This document shows, one piece after another, positions 3,281-19,180 of a stretch of 64,000 nucleotides of DNA; position 1 is the first letter of the stretch, and the number at the start of each line of letters is the position of its first letter. The notes beneath the pieces are model-generated. The model did not search any database and was not told the DNA's origin. It saw nothing but the letters and a program-made list of their open reading frames with translations. The stretch comes from Exiguobacterium mexicanum (lineage in GTDB: Bacteria; Bacillota; Bacilli; Exiguobacteriales; Exiguobacteriaceae). The stretch lies in assembly GCF_005960665.1 (NCBI RefSeq), contig NZ_CP040676.1:320501-384500 (forward strand), read 5' to 3'. Position numbers and translations under genes: made by a program.

Positions 3281-4504
3281 ATGGAATTCATACTGATTAG
3301 TATCAGTTTATTGATTGGCGTCGGTATTCTGTCACAATGGTTGGCCTGGCGCTATCAAATCCCGGCCATCATCGTCATGACGGTCGCCGGTGTACTGGCC
3401 GGGCCGATGCTCGGATTGTTCGACCCGCGAGAACTGCTCGGTGAACTGTATAGCCCGATCATTTCTTTTGCCGTCGCTATCATCTTGTTTGAAGGGAGCC
3501 TCGGCCTCCATTTCAGTGAAATCAATCAATTTCGCCGTTCCATCGTCCGCATCGTGACGATCGGAGTGACGCTGTCGTTCGTCGGGGCCTCACTGTTGAT
3601 TCAATACGTCGGAGGTCTCCATTGGGTCGTCGCTTGGACGATGGGCGCACTTTTCGTCGTCACCGGTCCAACGGTCGTCATCCCGTTATTGCGCCAAGCA
3701 CATTTAAAGGATCGGGTCGGTGCCATTTTGAAATGGGAAGGGATCATCGTTGACCCGGTCGGCGCCCTCCTCGGTTTGTTCGTCATCCGCATCGGTTATA
3801 TCGTCTATGAAGGAATGGACTTGTGGATGCAACTATTGTTCGCGGGCGCTTGTCTCGTCGGCATCGGTCTCGGTTATTTGTTCGGGCACGTGTTGATGGG
3901 CTGGTTTGTCGGTGAGAAAATCCCTCGCTATCTCCGGGCCTCGGTCACGTTGACGGCCGTCTTGATCTTGTTCTCATTGAGTGAATTCATGATGCACGAA
4001 GTCGGTCTGCTCGCCGTGACGGCGATGGGGATGACGATGGCGAACACGAAACATCGGGATGAGGAAATTATCGAGGAGTTGCAATCATTTAAAGAGGATA
4101 TCTCGATCTTGCTCATCTCGTCGGTGTTCATCCTGTTGACGGCGTCGCTATCACGCGATGAACTGCTCAACATCTTCCAATGGCCGCTTCTTTTGACGAT
4201 TGCCGGCATTTTGTTTCTCGTTCGTCCGCTCGCGATTTATGGATCGACGATCGGCGTCGGTCTTCCGCTCAGCGAACGTGGTTTCATCGGATGGATTGCC
4301 CCGCGTGGCATCGTCGCCATGACAGTCGCCGGTTTCTTCGCAGAAGAAGTGGCGCATCTCGGGATTGACGACGCGTCGCAAATGCTACCGCTCACGATCG
4401 GACTGGTCTTTATTTCTGTGACACTACACGGGCTGACGATTCGACCGCTCGCTCGAAAATTGCATTTGATCGATAATAAAAAAGAAGAAGCGGCAGACGA
4501 ATGA
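3281..4504 (+). CDS. NhaP-type cation/proton antiporter (CPA1 family)
   Basis: This 407-residue membrane protein has about 11-12 hydrophobic segments, beginning directly at the N-terminus, and ends in a short charged tail (NKKEEAADE). Family marks are IILFEGSLGL near residue 70, TGPTVVIPLL near 130, EGIIVDPVGALLG near 150 and APRGIVAMTVA near 340, which line the ion path in CPA1 Na+/H+ antiporters. It exchanges Na+ or K+ for protons and supports salt and alkali tolerance. No cytoplasmic TrkA domain is attached. It is a single gene between rpmE and tdk, a position it does not occupy in Bacillus subtilis. Substrate is inferred. Confidence 0.88.
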   Translation: MEFILISISLLIGVGILSQWLAWRYQIPAIIVMTVAGVLAGPMLGLFDPRELLGELYSPIISFAVAIILFEGSLGLHFSEINQFRRSIVRIVTIGVTLSFVGASLLIQYVGGLHWVVAWTMGALFVVTGPTVVIPLLRQAHLKDRVGAILKWEGIIVDPVGALLGLFVIRIGYIVYEGMDLWMQLLFAGACLVGIGLGYLFGHVLMGWFVGEKIPRYLRASVTLTAVLILFSLSEFMMHEVGLLAVTAMGMTMANTKHRDEEIIEELQSFKEDISILLISSVFILLTASLSRDELLNIFQWPLLLTIAGILFLVRPLAIYGSTIGVGLPLSERGFIGWIAPRGIVAMTVAGFFAEEVAHLGIDDASQMLPLTIGLVFISVTLHGLTIRPLARKLHLIDNKKEEAADE

Positions 4505-11945: not shown

Positions 11946-12872
11946 ATGGACGTACGGACACTCGCAGATCGGGAACTCGCGGAACTACCGCTCATCGATA
12001 TGACCGAATGGCTCGTCCGAAAAGGCGAGCACGACCCGACGTTTCGCCTCGTCGCGAACGAGTTCGAGGTCGTCACGACGCTGCTCGATCATGGCTATTA
12101 TATCGAGGCAAGTGAACGGATCGTACCGCTTCTCGGGATGAAAGTGCCGGCGGCGTTTCATCGGCTCGGGCTCGCACTCGAAGTGAAGGCGAACGGAAAG
12201 AAGGCGGCCAAGCGCCGCTTTCGTTCGTTCTCCCCGGCCGTCATCGGTCATGCGGACTTGTCGGATTGGAAGAACGCGTTCAAGTGGGACAAGACATGGC
12301 TCGGCCTGCCGCTCGTCGTCGGACTCGGGCTGGTCGCGCTCGCCTTTTGGCCGGACCCGGCGCCACCCCCAGTGACGCCGTCCGCTTCCGACGAGCGGGT
12401 CGTGACGGTGACGGAAGAGGAGGCACTCGCGAAACGGTTAGAAGAACTCGAGAAAGAAGTCGCCCGGCTTGAAGAAGCGAACGAGGCGCTCCAAACCGAG
12501 GACGAGACGACCGAGTCGCCTGAGGCACCGACCGTCATCCCGCTCGCTAAAGTCGAGACACTCGTCTCGGACAAACGATACGAGGAAGCCGATGCGCTCC
12601 TCGTCGGCAAGGCGAAAGCCGGTCAAGAACAGGCGGTCGGATTTTATCGCTTGCTCGTCGACAACAAGCTCGGTGAAGCGGAGATCCAAGACTATGCCGC
12701 CTATGTCGAGACGTATCCCGAATCAGGGTATAAAGCGGACGTCTTATGGATGAAAGGCATCGCCGAGAAGAAGGCCGGGGACGACATGTACCGGACGACG
12801 CTCGCCGAAGTCGCTGCCATGGATGGAACGTATTGGGCGCCGATCGCCAAATCGGTGCTCGAGGAAGAATGA
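11946..12872 (+). CDS. Unknown single-pass membrane protein with coiled coil
   Basis: Not recognised. The 308-residue product has a charged cytoplasmic-looking N-terminal part (1-117), one membrane segment (about 119-136, LGLPLVVGLGLVALAF), a Pro-rich spacer, a Glu-rich coiled coil (about 155-180) and a C-terminal helical domain (about 195-308) whose spacing resembles tetratricopeptide repeats (VSDKRYEEADALLVGKAKAG; YPESGYKADVLWMKG). It begins four bases after glyA, so it is probably cotranscribed. The topology suggests an extracytoplasmic scaffold; function is unknown. Confidence 0.75.
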   Translation: MDVRTLADRELAELPLIDMTEWLVRKGEHDPTFRLVANEFEVVTTLLDHGYYIEASERIVPLLGMKVPAAFHRLGLALEVKANGKKAAKRRFRSFSPAVIGHADLSDWKNAFKWDKTWLGLPLVVGLGLVALAFWPDPAPPPVTPSASDERVVTVTEEEALAKRLEELEKEVARLEEANEALQTEDETTESPEAPTVIPLAKVETLVSDKRYEEADALLVGKAKAGQEQAVGFYRLLVDNKLGEAEIQDYAAYVETYPESGYKADVLWMKGIAEKKAGDDMYRTTLAEVAAMDGTYWAPIAKSVLEEE

Positions 12873-12900
12873 GGTCGCAGCGTGCTGTGGCCTCTTTTTC
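12871..12900 (+). terminator. Terminator after the unknown membrane protein
   Basis: GAGGTCGCAG pairs fully (two G-U) with CTGTGGCCTC across a CGTG loop, then a T run. It starts in the stop codon and abuts the following operator. Confidence 0.75.
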
Positions 12901-12953
12901 TCATCAAATTCTAATCTGTTTCACCGCTCTTTCTCAGCTCGCTCCCGTAAAGT
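12898..12953 (+). promoter_or_regulatory. Predicted response-regulator operator and promoter (site 1)
   Basis: Four direct repeats spaced exactly 11 bp lie at 12898 (TTCTCAT), 12909 (TTCTAAT), 12920 (TTCACCG) and 12931 (TTCTCAG), followed by a weak -10 TAAAGT at 12948-12953. Direct repeats with an 11-bp period are the usual binding pattern of OmpR/PhoB regulators. The same TTCTCAT-N4-TTCTAAT core recurs at 15261. Confidence 0.65.
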
Positions 12954-12985
12954 AAAGAAAGAAAATAGACAAGGGAGAGGGACAT

Positions 12986-13255
12986 ATGCGCTCAACTAGC
13001 AGAGGAAAGATTGGAAGAATGATTCGAAGAGTGGCCGTCGGTGCGCTCGCATTGACACTCATGACGGCAGGGGTCGCCGGGTTCCTATTATTCACCTTGA
13101 CCGGTAACGCTTGGCTCGACCAAATCGCTCAAGTCGGGACTGATTTGGCGTTTCAGGCGGAAGGGATTGAAACGACGTTTGACCGGATGGGCGATTCACT
13201 CGAATTGCGCATCGAACAAGCGATTCCAGAAGCAGTTCGTCCGTTTTTTGACTGA
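12986..13255 (+). CDS. Small membrane protein upstream of the two-component system
   Basis: An 89-residue protein of unrecognised family. A Lys/Arg-rich N-terminus is followed by one membrane segment (about 23-43, GALALTLMTAGVAGFLLFTL) and an acidic extracellular-looking tail ending ESPEAVRPFF-like (actual end PEAVRPFFD). RBS AAGGGAGAGGG precedes the ATG. It lies under an operator shared with the gene at 15362 and before the regulator gene, separated by a terminator, so it may be a target or an accessory of this system. Its function is inferred only from context. Confidence 0.7.
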   Translation: MRSTSRGKIGRMIRRVAVGALALTLMTAGVAGFLLFTLTGNAWLDQIAQVGTDLAFQAEGIETTFDRMGDSLELRIEQAIPEAVRPFFD

Positions 13256-13281
13256 GGAATCCGGGAACACTTAGAATGATG

Positions 13282-13310
13282 CGTCGGGCGGACTGCTCGG
13301 CGTTTTTTTT
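13282..13310 (+). terminator. Terminator between small membrane protein and response regulator
   Basis: CGTCGGGC pairs with GCTCGGCG (two G-U) across a 5-nt loop with eight T residues. It ends 18 bases before the regulator ATG, so the system is probably read through partially from site 1. Confidence 0.7.
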
Positions 13311-13327
13311 AAGAAAGGATGAATGAA

Positions 13328-14005
13328 ATGCCTACGATTCTCGTCGTTGAAGACGATGCTAAAATTGCCAGATTACTCGAACTTGAACTTATGCATGCCG
13401 GTTATCAAGTCGAGGTCGCTCACGACGGGCGGGCCGGGCTCGACCGGGCACTGACTGGAGGGATTGACCTCATGTTGCTCGATGTCATGCTGCCGCAGAT
13501 GAGCGGTCTCGAAGTCGTGCGCCGCGTCAAAGAAGAGCAGCCGCTTCTCCCGGTATTGATGGTGACGGCACGTGGGGACCGTTACGATAAAGTGAGCGGG
13601 CTCGACCTCGGGGCCGATGATTACATCACGAAACCGTTCGAGATGGAAGAGTTGCTCGCACGGATCCGGGCGTTCTTACGGATGCGGCAACACGTCCAAG
13701 TCGATACGAGTGAACGGGTCTTATCTTATGAAGGGCTGACCGTCGACGTCAATCGTCACGAAGTAATCTGCGAGGGGCAAAAAGTCGACCTGACCCGGAG
13801 AGAGTTCGATTTGCTCGTCTATCTGCTCGAACATTCGGAACGCGTGCTCACGCGCGACCAACTCGTCGAACACGTCTGGGGCTTTGACTATTACGGGGAC
13901 ACGAACGTCGTCGATGTGTACGTCCGCTATGTCCGCAAGAAACTCGGGGGCTCTTGGATTCAGACGGTCCGAGGCGTCGGCTATATGCTGAAGCGTGGTG
14001 AATAA
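13328..14005 (+). CDS. OmpR-family response regulator
   Basis: The 225-residue regulator has a receiver domain (1-118) with the acidic pair EDD near residue 8, the phospho-acceptor Asp52 in LMLLDVMLP, Thr in MVTARG and Lys in YITKPF. A winged-helix domain follows (about 130-225; LTRREFDLLVYLL, VYVRYVRKKLG). RBS AAGAAAGGA favours the ATG at 13328 over 13319. It is coupled to the kinase gene, whose start lies at its stop. The 11-bp direct repeats at 12898 and 15261 are its probable binding sites. Confidence 0.93.
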   Translation: MPTILVVEDDAKIARLLELELMHAGYQVEVAHDGRAGLDRALTGGIDLMLLDVMLPQMSGLEVVRRVKEEQPLLPVLMVTARGDRYDKVSGLDLGADDYITKPFEMEELLARIRAFLRMRQHVQVDTSERVLSYEGLTVDVNRHEVICEGQKVDLTRREFDLLVYLLEHSERVLTRDQLVEHVWGFDYYGDTNVVDVYVRYVRKKLGGSWIQTVRGVGYMLKRGE

Positions 14006-14006
14006 A

Positions 14007-15245
14007 ATGAAGCTACGGACGAAAATCGCTTTGGCGATGGCGGGGTTCATGTTGTTCCTCCTGATCACCTCGTTCGGTGTCGCCTGGCTCGTCTCGCGTC
14101 AACAGATCGTCGACGCCCGCTATGACGTCTTGCGCCAGGCACTCAGCTTGCTCGAGGAGGACGAGCGGAATCGCCAGGCCGTCTTGTCGTTACACGAGGA
14201 CAGTGTCGTGCTCGAACGGCAAGCGAACGGTGACTGGGGCATCATCGGCGGAGAGGCCGAGGAAGGATTGCGGTTTCCCGTCAATTTCGGCGAGCCGGCC
14301 CTCATCGACGACTGGTTCGTCATCGCGACGTCGAATGGGCTCGGCTACGCGTTTCAAGACGCGGCGGTGAGTGAGACGCTGCGGACGCTCGCGACCATTT
14401 TTCTCATCATCTTTTTGATCGCCGTGGCGATGACGTTCATCGGCAGCCTGTGGATCGTGCGCCAGGGACTCGACCCGCTCCGCCGGCTCGAGACGACGAT
14501 GGAACGGATCACGGAATCGGGAACCCTTGAGACCATCGATGTCGGGACGAGCCAAGACGAAGTGTCGACACTTGCGACTGGCTTCAATCAAATGATTGGC
14601 CGGGTCGAAGGGTCGATGGAGCAACAACGGCGTTTCGTCGCCGATGTTTCACATGAACTGAAGACGCCGCTCACGGTCATCGAAGGGTACGCCAAACTGC
14701 TCCGGCGCTGGGGACAGAGCGACCCGGCCGTCCGTGACGAGGCGATCGATCACATTTTGACCGAGTCCCGGCAAATGCGCGAAGACTTGATTGAACCGAT
14801 GCTTGAACTGAGCCGCTTCTCCTCACTTGAAAAAATCGAGGCCGAAGCGATTGAATTAACCGAATTCGCCGACCAATTGACCGAGCGGTTCGAGCGTTCG
14901 CATGGCGTCCGGGTTCCAATCGAGGCGACAGGAACGTGGTACGGACACCGTGATTCGCTGCAACGGCTCGTCGTCATCTTCATCGACAACAGCTTGAAGT
15001 ACGCGACTGACACGCACGTGACGATGACACCGAATCGGATTGAAGTGCGTGACCATGGGACGACACTGAGCGATGACGCCAGGGCGCGTTTGTTCGACCG
15101 CTTTTATCGACTCGATGAGGCACGGGACCGGAGCGGCAGCGGACTCGGGCTCGCCATCGCCAAGGAAGTGGCCGACATGAACGGTTGGTCGGTCGGCAGT
15201 TACGCGAACGCGCCGGACGGCAGTATTTTCTTCGTCGCAAAATGA
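14007..15245 (+). CDS. Membrane sensor histidine kinase, partner of the upstream regulator
   Basis: The 412-residue kinase has a first membrane segment (about 8-28), a short extracytoplasmic domain (about 30-125), a second segment (about 128-150), HAMP (about 152-203), HisKA with His216 in DVSHELKTPLTVIEGY, and a HATPase domain (N box FIDNSLKYA, G boxes RDHGTT and GSGLGLAIAKEV). Start ATG 14007 lies two bases after the regulator stop; in-frame GTGs at 13995 and 13998 are alternatives. The sensed signal is unknown. Confidence 0.92.
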   Translation: MKLRTKIALAMAGFMLFLLITSFGVAWLVSRQQIVDARYDVLRQALSLLEEDERNRQAVLSLHEDSVVLERQANGDWGIIGGEAEEGLRFPVNFGEPALIDDWFVIATSNGLGYAFQDAAVSETLRTLATIFLIIFLIAVAMTFIGSLWIVRQGLDPLRRLETTMERITESGTLETIDVGTSQDEVSTLATGFNQMIGRVEGSMEQQRRFVADVSHELKTPLTVIEGYAKLLRRWGQSDPAVRDEAIDHILTESRQMREDLIEPMLELSRFSSLEKIEAEAIELTEFADQLTERFERSHGVRVPIEATGTWYGHRDSLQRLVVIFIDNSLKYATDTHVTMTPNRIEVRDHGTTLSDDARARLFDRFYRLDEARDRSGSGLGLAIAKEVADMNGWSVGSYANAPDGSIFFVAK

Positions 15246-15260
15246 CAAACCTTTCGCAGA

Positions 15261-15316
15261 TTCTCATCGTTTTCTAATGGAATCCTCGTGGTGCTCTAAG
15301 GTCACCGTTCTATGAT
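15261..15316 (+). promoter_or_regulatory. Predicted response-regulator operator and promoter (site 2)
   Basis: TTCTCAT (15261) and TTCTAAT (15272) repeat the core of site 1 with identical spacing; weaker copies TCCTCGT (15283) and CTCTAAG (15294) keep the 11-bp phase. The -10 TATGAT (15311-15316) starts 33 bp after the second repeat, exactly as in site 1. No good -35 is present, as expected of an activator-dependent promoter. Confidence 0.68.
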
Positions 15317-15361: not shown

Positions 15362-16063
15362 ATGAAACTAATCGGATGGATTTTAGGCGTCGGCTTGGCA
15401 GTCCTCGCCGTCGCAGGAATCGGGTTGTATGTTGCGAACGACAACACGGACACGGTCATCGTCCCGCGGTCGGTCGACAGTGTGAACAGTGGGACGGATG
15501 ATGCCGCAGATGACGCACAAGACGATGCGAACCAAGAAGCGGCCGCGTCGACAGAAGGAACAGCCTCGAGTGACACGCCGGTCCGTTCGGTCGATGACGA
15601 TGATTATGAATTGTATGGTACCCTCGTCAGCCTATCAGACCGTGACGTGACGATCAGCTTCAGCGGCAAGGAAGCGACGTATCCGCTCGCGGCCCGTCAT
15701 GAGATTGATGATGATACGCCGAAAGCCGGTGATCGCGTGAAATTGGAATTCAATCAAAACGAGGAAGTGAAGGAAGTTGACCGCGAGAGTGACGACTTTG
15801 ACATCTACGGCACGTTTGTCAGTCTGTCGGACCGTGACGTGACCATCGAGCGTGACGGCAAGTCCGAGACGTTCAAACTCGCGAGCCGCTACGAGCTTGA
15901 CGACGAGGCGCCAAAAGCCGGTGACCGCGTCAAACTTGAGTTGAACCTCCAAGAACAGGTGAAAGAGATTGAACGGGACGATGACCGGGATGACCGGGAT
16001 GAACAAGACAATCGAGATGATCAAAATGATGACAATCAAGACGACGACCGAGATGACGACTAA
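15362..16063 (+). CDS. Exported or membrane-anchored acidic protein with duplicated domain
   Basis: The 233-residue product begins with a hydrophobic segment (about 3-23), then a Asp/Ala-rich spacer and two copies of a domain of about 60 residues (about 78-140 and 141-203). Both copies share Y-G-T-x-V-S-L-S-D-R-D-V-T-I and KAGDRVKLE. The tail is almost only Asp, Asn, Arg and Gln. The domain looks like a small beta barrel; acidic tail may bind cations. The family is not recognised. ATG 15362 is chosen because GAGGAGGA sits 8 bases upstream. It lies beside the two-component system under site 2, so it is a likely target. Confidence 0.75.
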   Translation: MKLIGWILGVGLAVLAVAGIGLYVANDNTDTVIVPRSVDSVNSGTDDAADDAQDDANQEAAASTEGTASSDTPVRSVDDDDYELYGTLVSLSDRDVTISFSGKEATYPLAARHEIDDDTPKAGDRVKLEFNQNEEVKEVDRESDDFDIYGTFVSLSDRDVTIERDGKSETFKLASRYELDDEAPKAGDRVKLELNLQEQVKEIERDDDRDDRDEQDNRDDQNDDNQDDDRDDD

Positions 16064-17698: not shown

Positions 17699-19180
17699 GT
17701 GAAATTGAAAAAGTTAATTATGTCTCTAATGGTAGTGTTGTTAATTGTTAGTCTGAACATGTCCAAAACGGGGGCACAAACCATGAACCCACTCGACGGC
17801 GTGAAGAACTATCAAGTGTATTATGGTCATCCAACGGCAGCGATTTTGAAAGATATGCAAAACTATGACCTCGTCATCATTGAGCCACTCCATTACACGA
17901 AAGCGCAAGTGGAGCAAATCAAAGCACGCGGGACAAAAGTACTCGGATATATTAGCGTTATGGAAGTCGCGACATGGAACACAGGTCTCATGTCAAAACT
18001 TCAGTCAGGTGACTTCTTTACGCGTAACGGACAACGTGTCCATTACTCGGAATGGGATTCGTACTTGACGAACATCGCCTCACCGCACTTCCAAGGGTTG
18101 CTCCTCACGGAAATCCAGAACCAAGTCGTCGCCAAAGGCATCGATGGCGTGTTCATGGATACGGTCGGTGATATCGATAACGAACATTTGAACAATCCGA
18201 CCGTGCTCAAGCAGCAACGGGACGGACTCGTCAACTTCTTGAAACAAGCTCGGGCGCGCTATGGTGATATCGCCATGGTTCAAAACTGGGGCTTCGACAC
18301 GTTAGAAACGTCAACGGCACCTTACGTTGACGGCATCATGTGGGAGAGTTTCAACGCCGACACGATCAAGAGCGACGCTTGGTCACAAAACATGATTAAG
18401 AAATTACAAGCAGTCGACGCGAAGCATTCGGTCAAGACGCTCACGATTTCGACACGTCTTAGCGCGGACAGCCACAAGCTCGCCAAAGATTCTGGGTTCA
18501 TCCATTTCCACGAAGCGGATGCTTACGTGAACTGGAACGCAGGTCTCGTGACGCGTACACAGGATACGGCGCCGGCACCGGTCGCAGTAGCACCGACGAC
18601 GAAGCCAGCTGAAACGACAACGACGAAGCCAGCTGAAACGACAACGACGAAGCCAGCTGAAACGACAACGACGAAGCCAGCTGAAACGACAACGACGAAG
18701 CCAGCTGAAACGACAACGACGAAGCCAGCTGAAACGACAACGACGAAGCCAGCTGAAACGACAACGACGAAGCCAGCTGAAACGACAACGACGAAGCCAG
18801 CTGAAACGACAACGACGAAGCCAGCTGAAACGACAACGACGAAGCCAGCTACAACGACTGCAACGAAACCAGCTGCAACGACAACGACGAAGCCTGTAAC
18901 AGAAACGGCGACAAAGCCTGTCACAAAGCCAGTCTCAGCTCCGAAAGCAGATGCCTCGACGGACAAACCGACCGAGTCGAAACAAAAAGAAAAAGCTGAC
19001 TGGAAGCAAGAGAAGAAAGACAAAAAAGAGAAGAAGAAGGCGAAAAAGCATGCCAAAAAATATGCTAAAAAGCATGCCGGCAAGCACAGCTCGTCTAACG
19101 ACCATCACGCCGCCAAAGGAAACATGTGCGGAAAAGTGAAACACAAGACGGCCGGTTTCTTAAATTTCTTCAAATTCTAA
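17699..19180 (+). CDS. Secreted GH114-like (polygalactosaminidase-type) protein with TTTTKPAE repeats
   Basis: The 493-residue protein starts with GTG after RBS CAGGAGAGG and has a signal peptide (about 1-27). Residues about 30-280 form a TIM-barrel domain of the GH114/TM1410 type (YDLVIIEPLHY, VLGYISVMEV, IDGVFMDTVGDID), a family with endo-alpha-1,4-polygalactosaminidase activity. Ten identical 8-residue repeats (KPAETTTT) follow, then degenerate copies, then a Lys/His-rich tail with one Cys. The Thr-Pro spacer and basic tail suggest wall or matrix attachment. The enzyme substrate is inferred from the family only. Confidence 0.82.
   Translation: MKLKKLIMSLMVVLLIVSLNMSKTGAQTMNPLDGVKNYQVYYGHPTAAILKDMQNYDLVIIEPLHYTKAQVEQIKARGTKVLGYISVMEVATWNTGLMSKLQSGDFFTRNGQRVHYSEWDSYLTNIASPHFQGLLLTEIQNQVVAKGIDGVFMDTVGDIDNEHLNNPTVLKQQRDGLVNFLKQARARYGDIAMVQNWGFDTLETSTAPYVDGIMWESFNADTIKSDAWSQNMIKKLQAVDAKHSVKTLTISTRLSADSHKLAKDSGFIHFHEADAYVNWNAGLVTRTQDTAPAPVAVAPTTKPAETTTTKPAETTTTKPAETTTTKPAETTTTKPAETTTTKPAETTTTKPAETTTTKPAETTTTKPAETTTTKPAETTTTKPATTTATKPAATTTTKPVTETATKPVTKPVSAPKADASTDKPTESKQKEKADWKQEKKDKKEKKKAKKHAKKYAKKHAGKHSSSNDHHAAKGNMCGKVKHKTAGFLNFFKF
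18601..18840 (+). repeat. Ten perfect 24-bp tandem repeats
   Basis: The unit GAAGCCAGCTGAAACGACAA plus CGAC occurs ten times without a single change over 240 bp and encodes KPAETTTT. Degenerate copies continue to about 18935. Absence of silent drift indicates recent expansion or ongoing homogenisation. Confidence 0.97.

Follow-up and report, generated by a model that had tools for sequence, protein, structure and literature searches.

A two-component locus framed by matched repeat arrays

The window (the whole 64,000-nucleotide stretch of Exiguobacterium mexicanum DNA analysed here) carries the response regulator and sensor histidine kinase of a two-component system, in the gene order glyA-like gene, gene for a 308-amino-acid (aa) protein, predicted operator 1, 89-aa gene, regulator, kinase, predicted operator 2 and gene for an acidic 240-aa protein (Table 1). 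The regulator contains a receiver domain (PF00072, 1.2e-29) and a Trans_reg_C domain (PF00486, 1.4e-28), which place it in the OmpR/PhoB family, and the kinase contains HAMP, HisKA and HATPase domains (all from Pfam). A first-pass annotation had described matched operators on either side of this pair, and a direct reading of the letters agreed: TTCTCAT-N4-TTCTAAT occurs exactly at 12898 and at 15261, the two sites frame the regulator and kinase genes (13328-15245), two weaker copies continue at 11-bp steps in both places, and in both the -10 element starts 33 bp past the last base of the second repeat. Genome counts below refer to 38 Exiguobacterium genomes, the full yield of the search for this order; they fall into two genera, the window's own (genus 1) and its sister (genus 2). 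The distance from the kinase stop to the start of operator 2 was 16 bp in 17/17 genomes.

Table 1. Features of the regulator locus, in window coordinates; genus 1 is the genus of the window.
Feature	Position	Strand	Support or occurrence
Operator 1 (predicted), four repeats: TTCTCAT 12898-12904, spacer CAAA, TTCTAAT 12909-12915, TTCACCG 12920-12926, TTCTCAG 12931-12937	12898..12937	+	kept in 17/19 genomes of genus 1
Promoter 1 -10 element (predicted), TAAAGT	12948..12953	+	sequence, alignment and phase test
Gene for 89-aa protein, putative target 1; one hydrophobic segment by eye	12986..13255	+	17/38 genomes
Intrinsic terminator between target 1 and regulator, stem ~8 bp, T8	13282..13310	+	17/17 genomes with the 89-aa gene
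OmpR-family response regulator, ArlR-like	13328..14005	+	domains, reciprocal search, tree
HAMP sensor histidine kinase	14007..15245	+	Pfam domains
Operator 2 (predicted), four repeats: TTCTCAT 15261-15267, spacer CGTT, TTCTAAT 15272-15278, TCCTCGT 15283-15289, CTCTAAG 15294-15300	15261..15300	+	17/17 genomes
Promoter 2 -10 element (predicted), TATGAT	15311..15316	+	identical in 17/17
Acidic protein, putative target 2; N-terminal hydrophobic segment by eye; two OB-fold-like domains, ~15608-15784 and ~15797-15976	15362..16063	+	

The motif is conserved at, and nearly restricted to, this locus in Exiguobacterium

We counted TTCTCAT-N4-TTCTAAT against its reversed pattern as a control. In the genome of the window (G000; 2.69 Mb, four contigs) the two sites were the sole exact matches, none was found with one mismatch, and 15 had two mismatches (11 inside stop-to-stop frames of at least 80 aa, several of them short and uncertain as genes, and four outside). 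These two-mismatch matches resemble background, because at up to two mismatches the motif gave 17 matches and the reversed pattern 12. Within the window, nine matches at up to three mismatches (two exact, the other seven with three mismatches) stood against 4.1 expected, a count that on its own would leave room for a chance resemblance between two intergenic stretches. We gave this explanation almost no credence and rejected it, since it is refuted by conservation: 35 of the 36 exact matches in the 38 genomes lie at this locus, and the repeats are conserved above both their spacers and the 40 bases upstream. The kinase was found in 34/38 genomes, and in 33 of these 34 the locus held a match with at most one mismatch, so that both the conservation at orthologous loci and the non-random placement anticipated by the first-pass annotation were observed.

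The four kinase-less genomes (G013, G024, G026 and G034) together gave 12 matches at up to one mismatch, and the four of these that we inspected all fall within open frames, which span 108 to 673 codons. All four genomes retain the 308-aa neighbour gene. The 240-aa protein family, which was not found in them, occurs in the same 34 genomes as the kinase and, in a draw of 398 Bacilli genomes, was restricted to those 34 at E 1e-6, with none in the 360 non-Exiguobacterium genomes. A scan of genome contigs gave only weak kinase matches outside Exiguobacterium. Altered loci were also seen: G003 (L067) lacks the 89-aa gene and has an acidic protein with one repeat domain, its locus apparently being in decay, and in G014 (L077) a 1.4-kb insertion with a TnpB-like frame (named by eye) separates the regulator and kinase genes.

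Four direct repeats stand in phase with a -10 element

We then aligned 50 sites from 33 genomes (17 of site 1, 17 of site 2 and 16 from genus 2), omitting G003, which has no site at up to two mismatches, and an extra two-mismatch match in G015, 1.7 kb past site 2. Spacing was kept and TAnnnT stood at offset +50 in 50/50 sites. In the three sets the majority-base frequency was 0.93/0.91/0.97 in the repeats versus 0.64/0.81/0.85 in the spacers. In a phase test over five promoter groups, repeat-likeness at offset +33 ranked first and at +22 third of 38 offsets, which makes the fourth repeat clear and the third moderate. No TTGACA-like hexamer at 17-bp spacing from the -10 element was present in the aligned sites. 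The -10 element follows the start of the fourth repeat by 17 bp, and the third and fourth repeats lie about where the absent -35 hexamer would be expected.

An excerpt of PMC4415409 describes the PHO box as direct repeats with an 11-nt unit, in which seven bases are conserved and four vary, and describes tandem binding to these units; the sites here share this geometry. They differ from the PhoB/PhoP PHO box in repeat sequence, and whereas that excerpt has PHO-box regulators answering to phosphate, no such pointer was found here. On the four 11-bp repeats, two regulator dimers would bind in head-to-tail tandem.

The operator adjoins related regulators across Bacilli

A regulator search over 299 Bacilli genomes provided 20 loci outside Exiguobacterium, made up of the 17 top-ranked rows and three lower ones. 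In these we counted operon-strand matches with two mismatches or fewer, starting at position 2700, close to where the regulator gene begins. The motif was present in 16/20 loci with 27 matches (two overlapping, one just before the regulator), and controls over the whole loci gave three minus-strand matches and two matches to the reversed pattern. A -10-like hexamer (at least 4 of 6) stood at +50, after four repeats, in 14/27 matches and at +28, after two repeats, in 8/27, with neither in 5/27; in both layouts the last repeat begins 17 nt ahead of the -10 element. Two loci had features of their own: L187 carries one further operon-strand match before position 2700, and L185 (G235) carries an exact motif at 3366, in operon orientation before the regulator gene itself, which suggests direct autoregulation there.

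PepSY proteins were the usual neighbours of these loci. Fourteen of the 16 site-bearing loci were scanned, and 16/19 proteins (10/10 in one scan and 6/9 in another), from 11/14 loci, were PepSY proteins. A PsbP-like protein, a methyltransferase and a glycosyltransferase were the neighbours at the other three, and target exchange would therefore not be unique to Exiguobacterium. The Bacilli regulator-kinase-PepSY loci resemble the present one in regulator clade, in operators placed mostly just after the kinase gene and in the two- and four-repeat layouts, and differ in their PepSY neighbours, as neither putative target here matches PepSY in Pfam.

In a tree of the regulators, the Exiguobacterium proteins, those of the site-bearing loci and an ArlR-like protein from genome G223 (on a long branch) group apart from seven paralogues (99/94), and recognition helices are near-identical within this group. 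The tree covered 10/34 Exiguobacterium regulators (24 near copies were left out), 19 of the 20 outside regulators and seven of ten paralogues. The ArlR-like protein, which we take to be ArlR from its murG- and odhA-like neighbours, is the single protein of G223 that the regulator matches at an E of 1e-52 or lower, and a reverse search with it returned the window's regulator first in G000 (3.8e-70, 51% identity; next 8.2e-61). NCBIfam gave no ArlR model among the matches listed. The reciprocal best match, the clade apart from the paralogues and the operator TTCTCAT-N4-TTYTAAT together mark the regulator as ArlR-like by sequence. With the operator also standing beside homologous regulators in other Bacilli, the arrangement is therefore not a local invention; the operator appears to be of ArlR type, from a clade spread over Bacilli whose usual neighbours differ in Exiguobacterium.

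These comparisons also bear on whether the repeats could be an extended or alternative-sigma promoter motif unrelated to the regulator, or a site for another OmpR-family paralogue. The motif is usually accompanied by a -10-like element and the genome encodes at least ten other OmpR-type regulators, as such an explanation would have it. Yet motif and regulator travel together through the kinase-bearing genomes, the same motif adjoins homologous regulators in other families, and ten paralogue genes have no match at up to two mismatches within 1.5 kb (the nearest, at 1.9 kb, lies in a long open frame). Recognition helices of the 7/10 paralogues that were extracted are also different. We regard this alternative as very unlikely.

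Resemblance to ArlRS and probable activation by the regulator

We presume that G223 is a Staphylococcus; this assignment and the labels MgrA and ArlR are putative and follow gene context, and the Spx label is supported by search. G223 contains only two exact matches to TTCTCAT-N4-TTYTAAT, before MgrA-like and Spx-like genes, the MgrA-side site overlapping open frames longer than 80 codons on each strand. With one mismatch allowed, the motif matches at 18 places and the reversed pattern at 6; apart from the two exact sites, most of the 18 fall within open frames or have no gene nearby. Across seven Staphylococcus-like genomes, 12/15 exact matches precede MgrA-like (5) or Spx-like (7) genes, and all 12 have at least five of six bases of TATAAT at +28; of the remaining three, one sits at the end of a contig and two lie at other places, and the reversed pattern gave one exact match in the six added genomes. 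A 2020 paper on the ArlR regulon reportedly gives the motif as TTTTCTCAT-N4-TTTTAATAA.

Control of mgrA and spx by ArlRS, through a sequence motif bound in their promoters, is described in an excerpt of PMC11708061. The present system shares with Staphylococcus ArlRS the reciprocal-best regulator, the TTCTCAT-N4-TTYTAAT operator and a last repeat that begins 17 nt ahead of the -10 element. In Staphylococcus the operator has two repeats with the -10 element at +28, and its sites drive regulators elsewhere in the genome; here, in contrast, there are four repeats, the -10 element is at +50, and the sites at up to one mismatch number two, both local and with predicted membrane-protein targets. No operator of this quality was found before an mgrA- or spx-like gene in G000, where the two matches at up to one mismatch are both at the regulator locus; weaker sites ahead of such genes were not sought.

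Since the third and fourth repeats lie around the missing -35 hexamer, the phosphorylated regulator most likely activates. The same position could instead mean that the regulator binds both sites and represses, its footprint over the -35 region blocking polymerase, and ArlR-type regulators are known as repressors of some genes. There is, however, no -35 hexamer there to block, and the fixed 17 nt from last repeat to -10 element, kept in two layouts, is typical of PhoB-type activation. In Staphylococcus, moreover, mgrA and spx are under positive control. Repression of both promoters therefore seems unlikely to us, and activation is the reading we carry forward.

A conserved terminator stands between the first putative target gene and the regulator

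In genus 1, a hairpin followed by at least six T lies between the 89-aa gene and the regulator in 17/17 genomes carrying the 89-aa gene, with a minimum free energy of -11.8 to -15.0 kcal/mol (34 nt before the T run; shuffle controls not run individually), and a consensus scan of the window recovered the same terminator. Autoregulation from promoter 1 would therefore need readthrough. In genus 2, a single operator precedes one protein gene, with the regulator and kinase following in the same operon, and the same terminator scan found nothing in 16/16. The readthrough autoregulation proposed in the first-pass annotation is consistent with the genus-2 arrangement, where regulator and operator share an operon free of such a terminator; in genus 1 the readthrough would have to pass the conserved terminator. 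In G035 (L095), a TnpB-like insertion (named by eye) lies just past the -10 element of the operator and splits its promoter from the target gene; this operon may therefore have lost its regulated promoter.

Both putative targets resemble segments of a single sister-genus protein

Neither putative target has a Pfam family above cut-off. No PepSY (PF03413) match was found at E 0.1 among six window proteins scanned, these two included, and a PepSY-like nature of the targets was rejected on that ground. PepSY genes do exist elsewhere in all 38 Exiguobacterium genomes, and the two PepSY matches of G000 are away from the locus.

As a separate gene, the 89-aa protein occurs in genus 1 only (17/38 genomes). 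The single protein encoded after the genus-2 operator begins with a membrane segment that resembles it (hhalign probability 77% with only the N-terminal part, E 2e-5, and 89% with the full-length protein, E 2.6e-6). In controls, 0/150 shuffled profiles scored as high and kinase N-termini scored lower, so we accept with caution that the 89-aa protein is homologous to the start of the genus-2 protein. Past its membrane segment, the genus-2 protein carries repeats that share homology with the repeats in the 240-aa protein (hhalign probability 99.6%). Because both targets match parts of one genus-2 protein, gene-fusion evidence would link them functionally, and this split or fused arrangement suggests that the two proteins work together.

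A structural model of the 240-aa protein contains two five-stranded beta domains (approximately residues 82-140 and 145-204, block pLDDT 72-94), with low confidence outside them and a mean pLDDT of 65 overall. Both Foldseek and VIA-align returned OB-fold matches, Foldseek ranking OB folds other than CusF first. The best VIA-align match was CusF (1zeq; rmsd 2.8 over 71 residues, 16% identity, mainly OB domain 2); its Z of 8.5 is close to what models lacking any clear match typically reach as their best. The resemblance to CusF/SilB-type periplasmic OB-fold metal chaperones consists in this match, mainly to domain 2; a fold in common would show no function, and the 240-aa protein differs from them in having two domains and an acidic tail. 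A sequence search of the PDB gave no convincing relative (best E 0.58), and a CBO2463-domain match was weak and below cut-off. A role of the targets in the envelope, in cation sensing or in feedback is a guess.

A predicted two-promoter regulon

We consider it very probable that each site is an operator-promoter of the ArlR-like regulator encoded between them, the phosphorylated form most likely acting as an activator. Promoter 1 would express the 89-aa membrane protein, and readthrough of the conserved terminator would yield more regulator and kinase, a damped positive autoregulation. Promoter 2 would express the acidic protein with two OB-fold-like domains, probably membrane-anchored and outward-facing. 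The local regulon predicted in the first-pass annotation, comprising an 89-residue membrane protein, an acidic duplicated-domain protein and autoregulation, is consistent with the layouts in both genera and is supported as the best reading of these sequences.

Several findings weigh against this reading. Off-locus matches at up to one mismatch in the 38 genomes number 59 (58 with one mismatch) versus 35 for the reversed pattern, so a few further targets are possible. G003 retains the regulator without site 1 and with three mismatches in site 2, and four of the 20 outside loci, the ArlR-like locus itself included, have no operon-strand site from position 2700. The third repeat is weakly conserved (0.70 over all sites) and is the poorest of the four in the window (TTCACCG and TCCTCGT). 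The -10 element of site 1 is a weak point as well, being only TAAAGT, and that of genus 2 (TATTCT) is poor, the best TATAAT match lying at +59 in 8/16 genus-2 sites. Finally, the regulator may have its own promoter at 13248-13277, where a promoter-like match (TTGACT-18-TAGAAT, 10 of 12) overlaps the end of the 89-aa gene and precedes the T run of the terminator; a match of this quality was found in 3/17 genomes, and it is therefore not a conserved promoter, but the regulator may have a separate start here.

More tentatively, and with the balance somewhat against it, the ArlR-type switch might have kept its operators and carry, instead of the PepSY outputs common among its relatives, a lineage-specific extracytoplasmic module. 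This module, a membrane segment with acidic tandem OB domains, would be encoded as a single protein in genus 2 and by two genes with promoters of their own in genus 1, and might feed back on the kinase or sense cations for it.

Among the literature matches listed we found no study of this locus or of its two-component system, for which the present analysis would define a two-promoter regulon. To the first-pass annotation the analysis adds the ArlR-type clade, the differing neighbours, the match of the targets to parts of one sister-genus protein and the conserved terminator before the regulator. The same operator appears to be kept beside related regulators across Bacilli families as the controlled genes change, from PepSY proteins to mgrA and spx to OB-fold proteins, and the two -10 spacings (two repeats, +28; four repeats, +50) offer an easy criterion by which ArlR-type promoters could be sought in further genomes.

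Upstream of the locus, the first repeat of operator 1 starts within the T tract of the strong terminator hairpin of the 308-aa gene (window 12871-12904), and similar hairpins were seen in all three of the other genomes that were folded. Elsewhere in the window, 17699-19180 encodes a protein with a long PAETTTTK repeat run.

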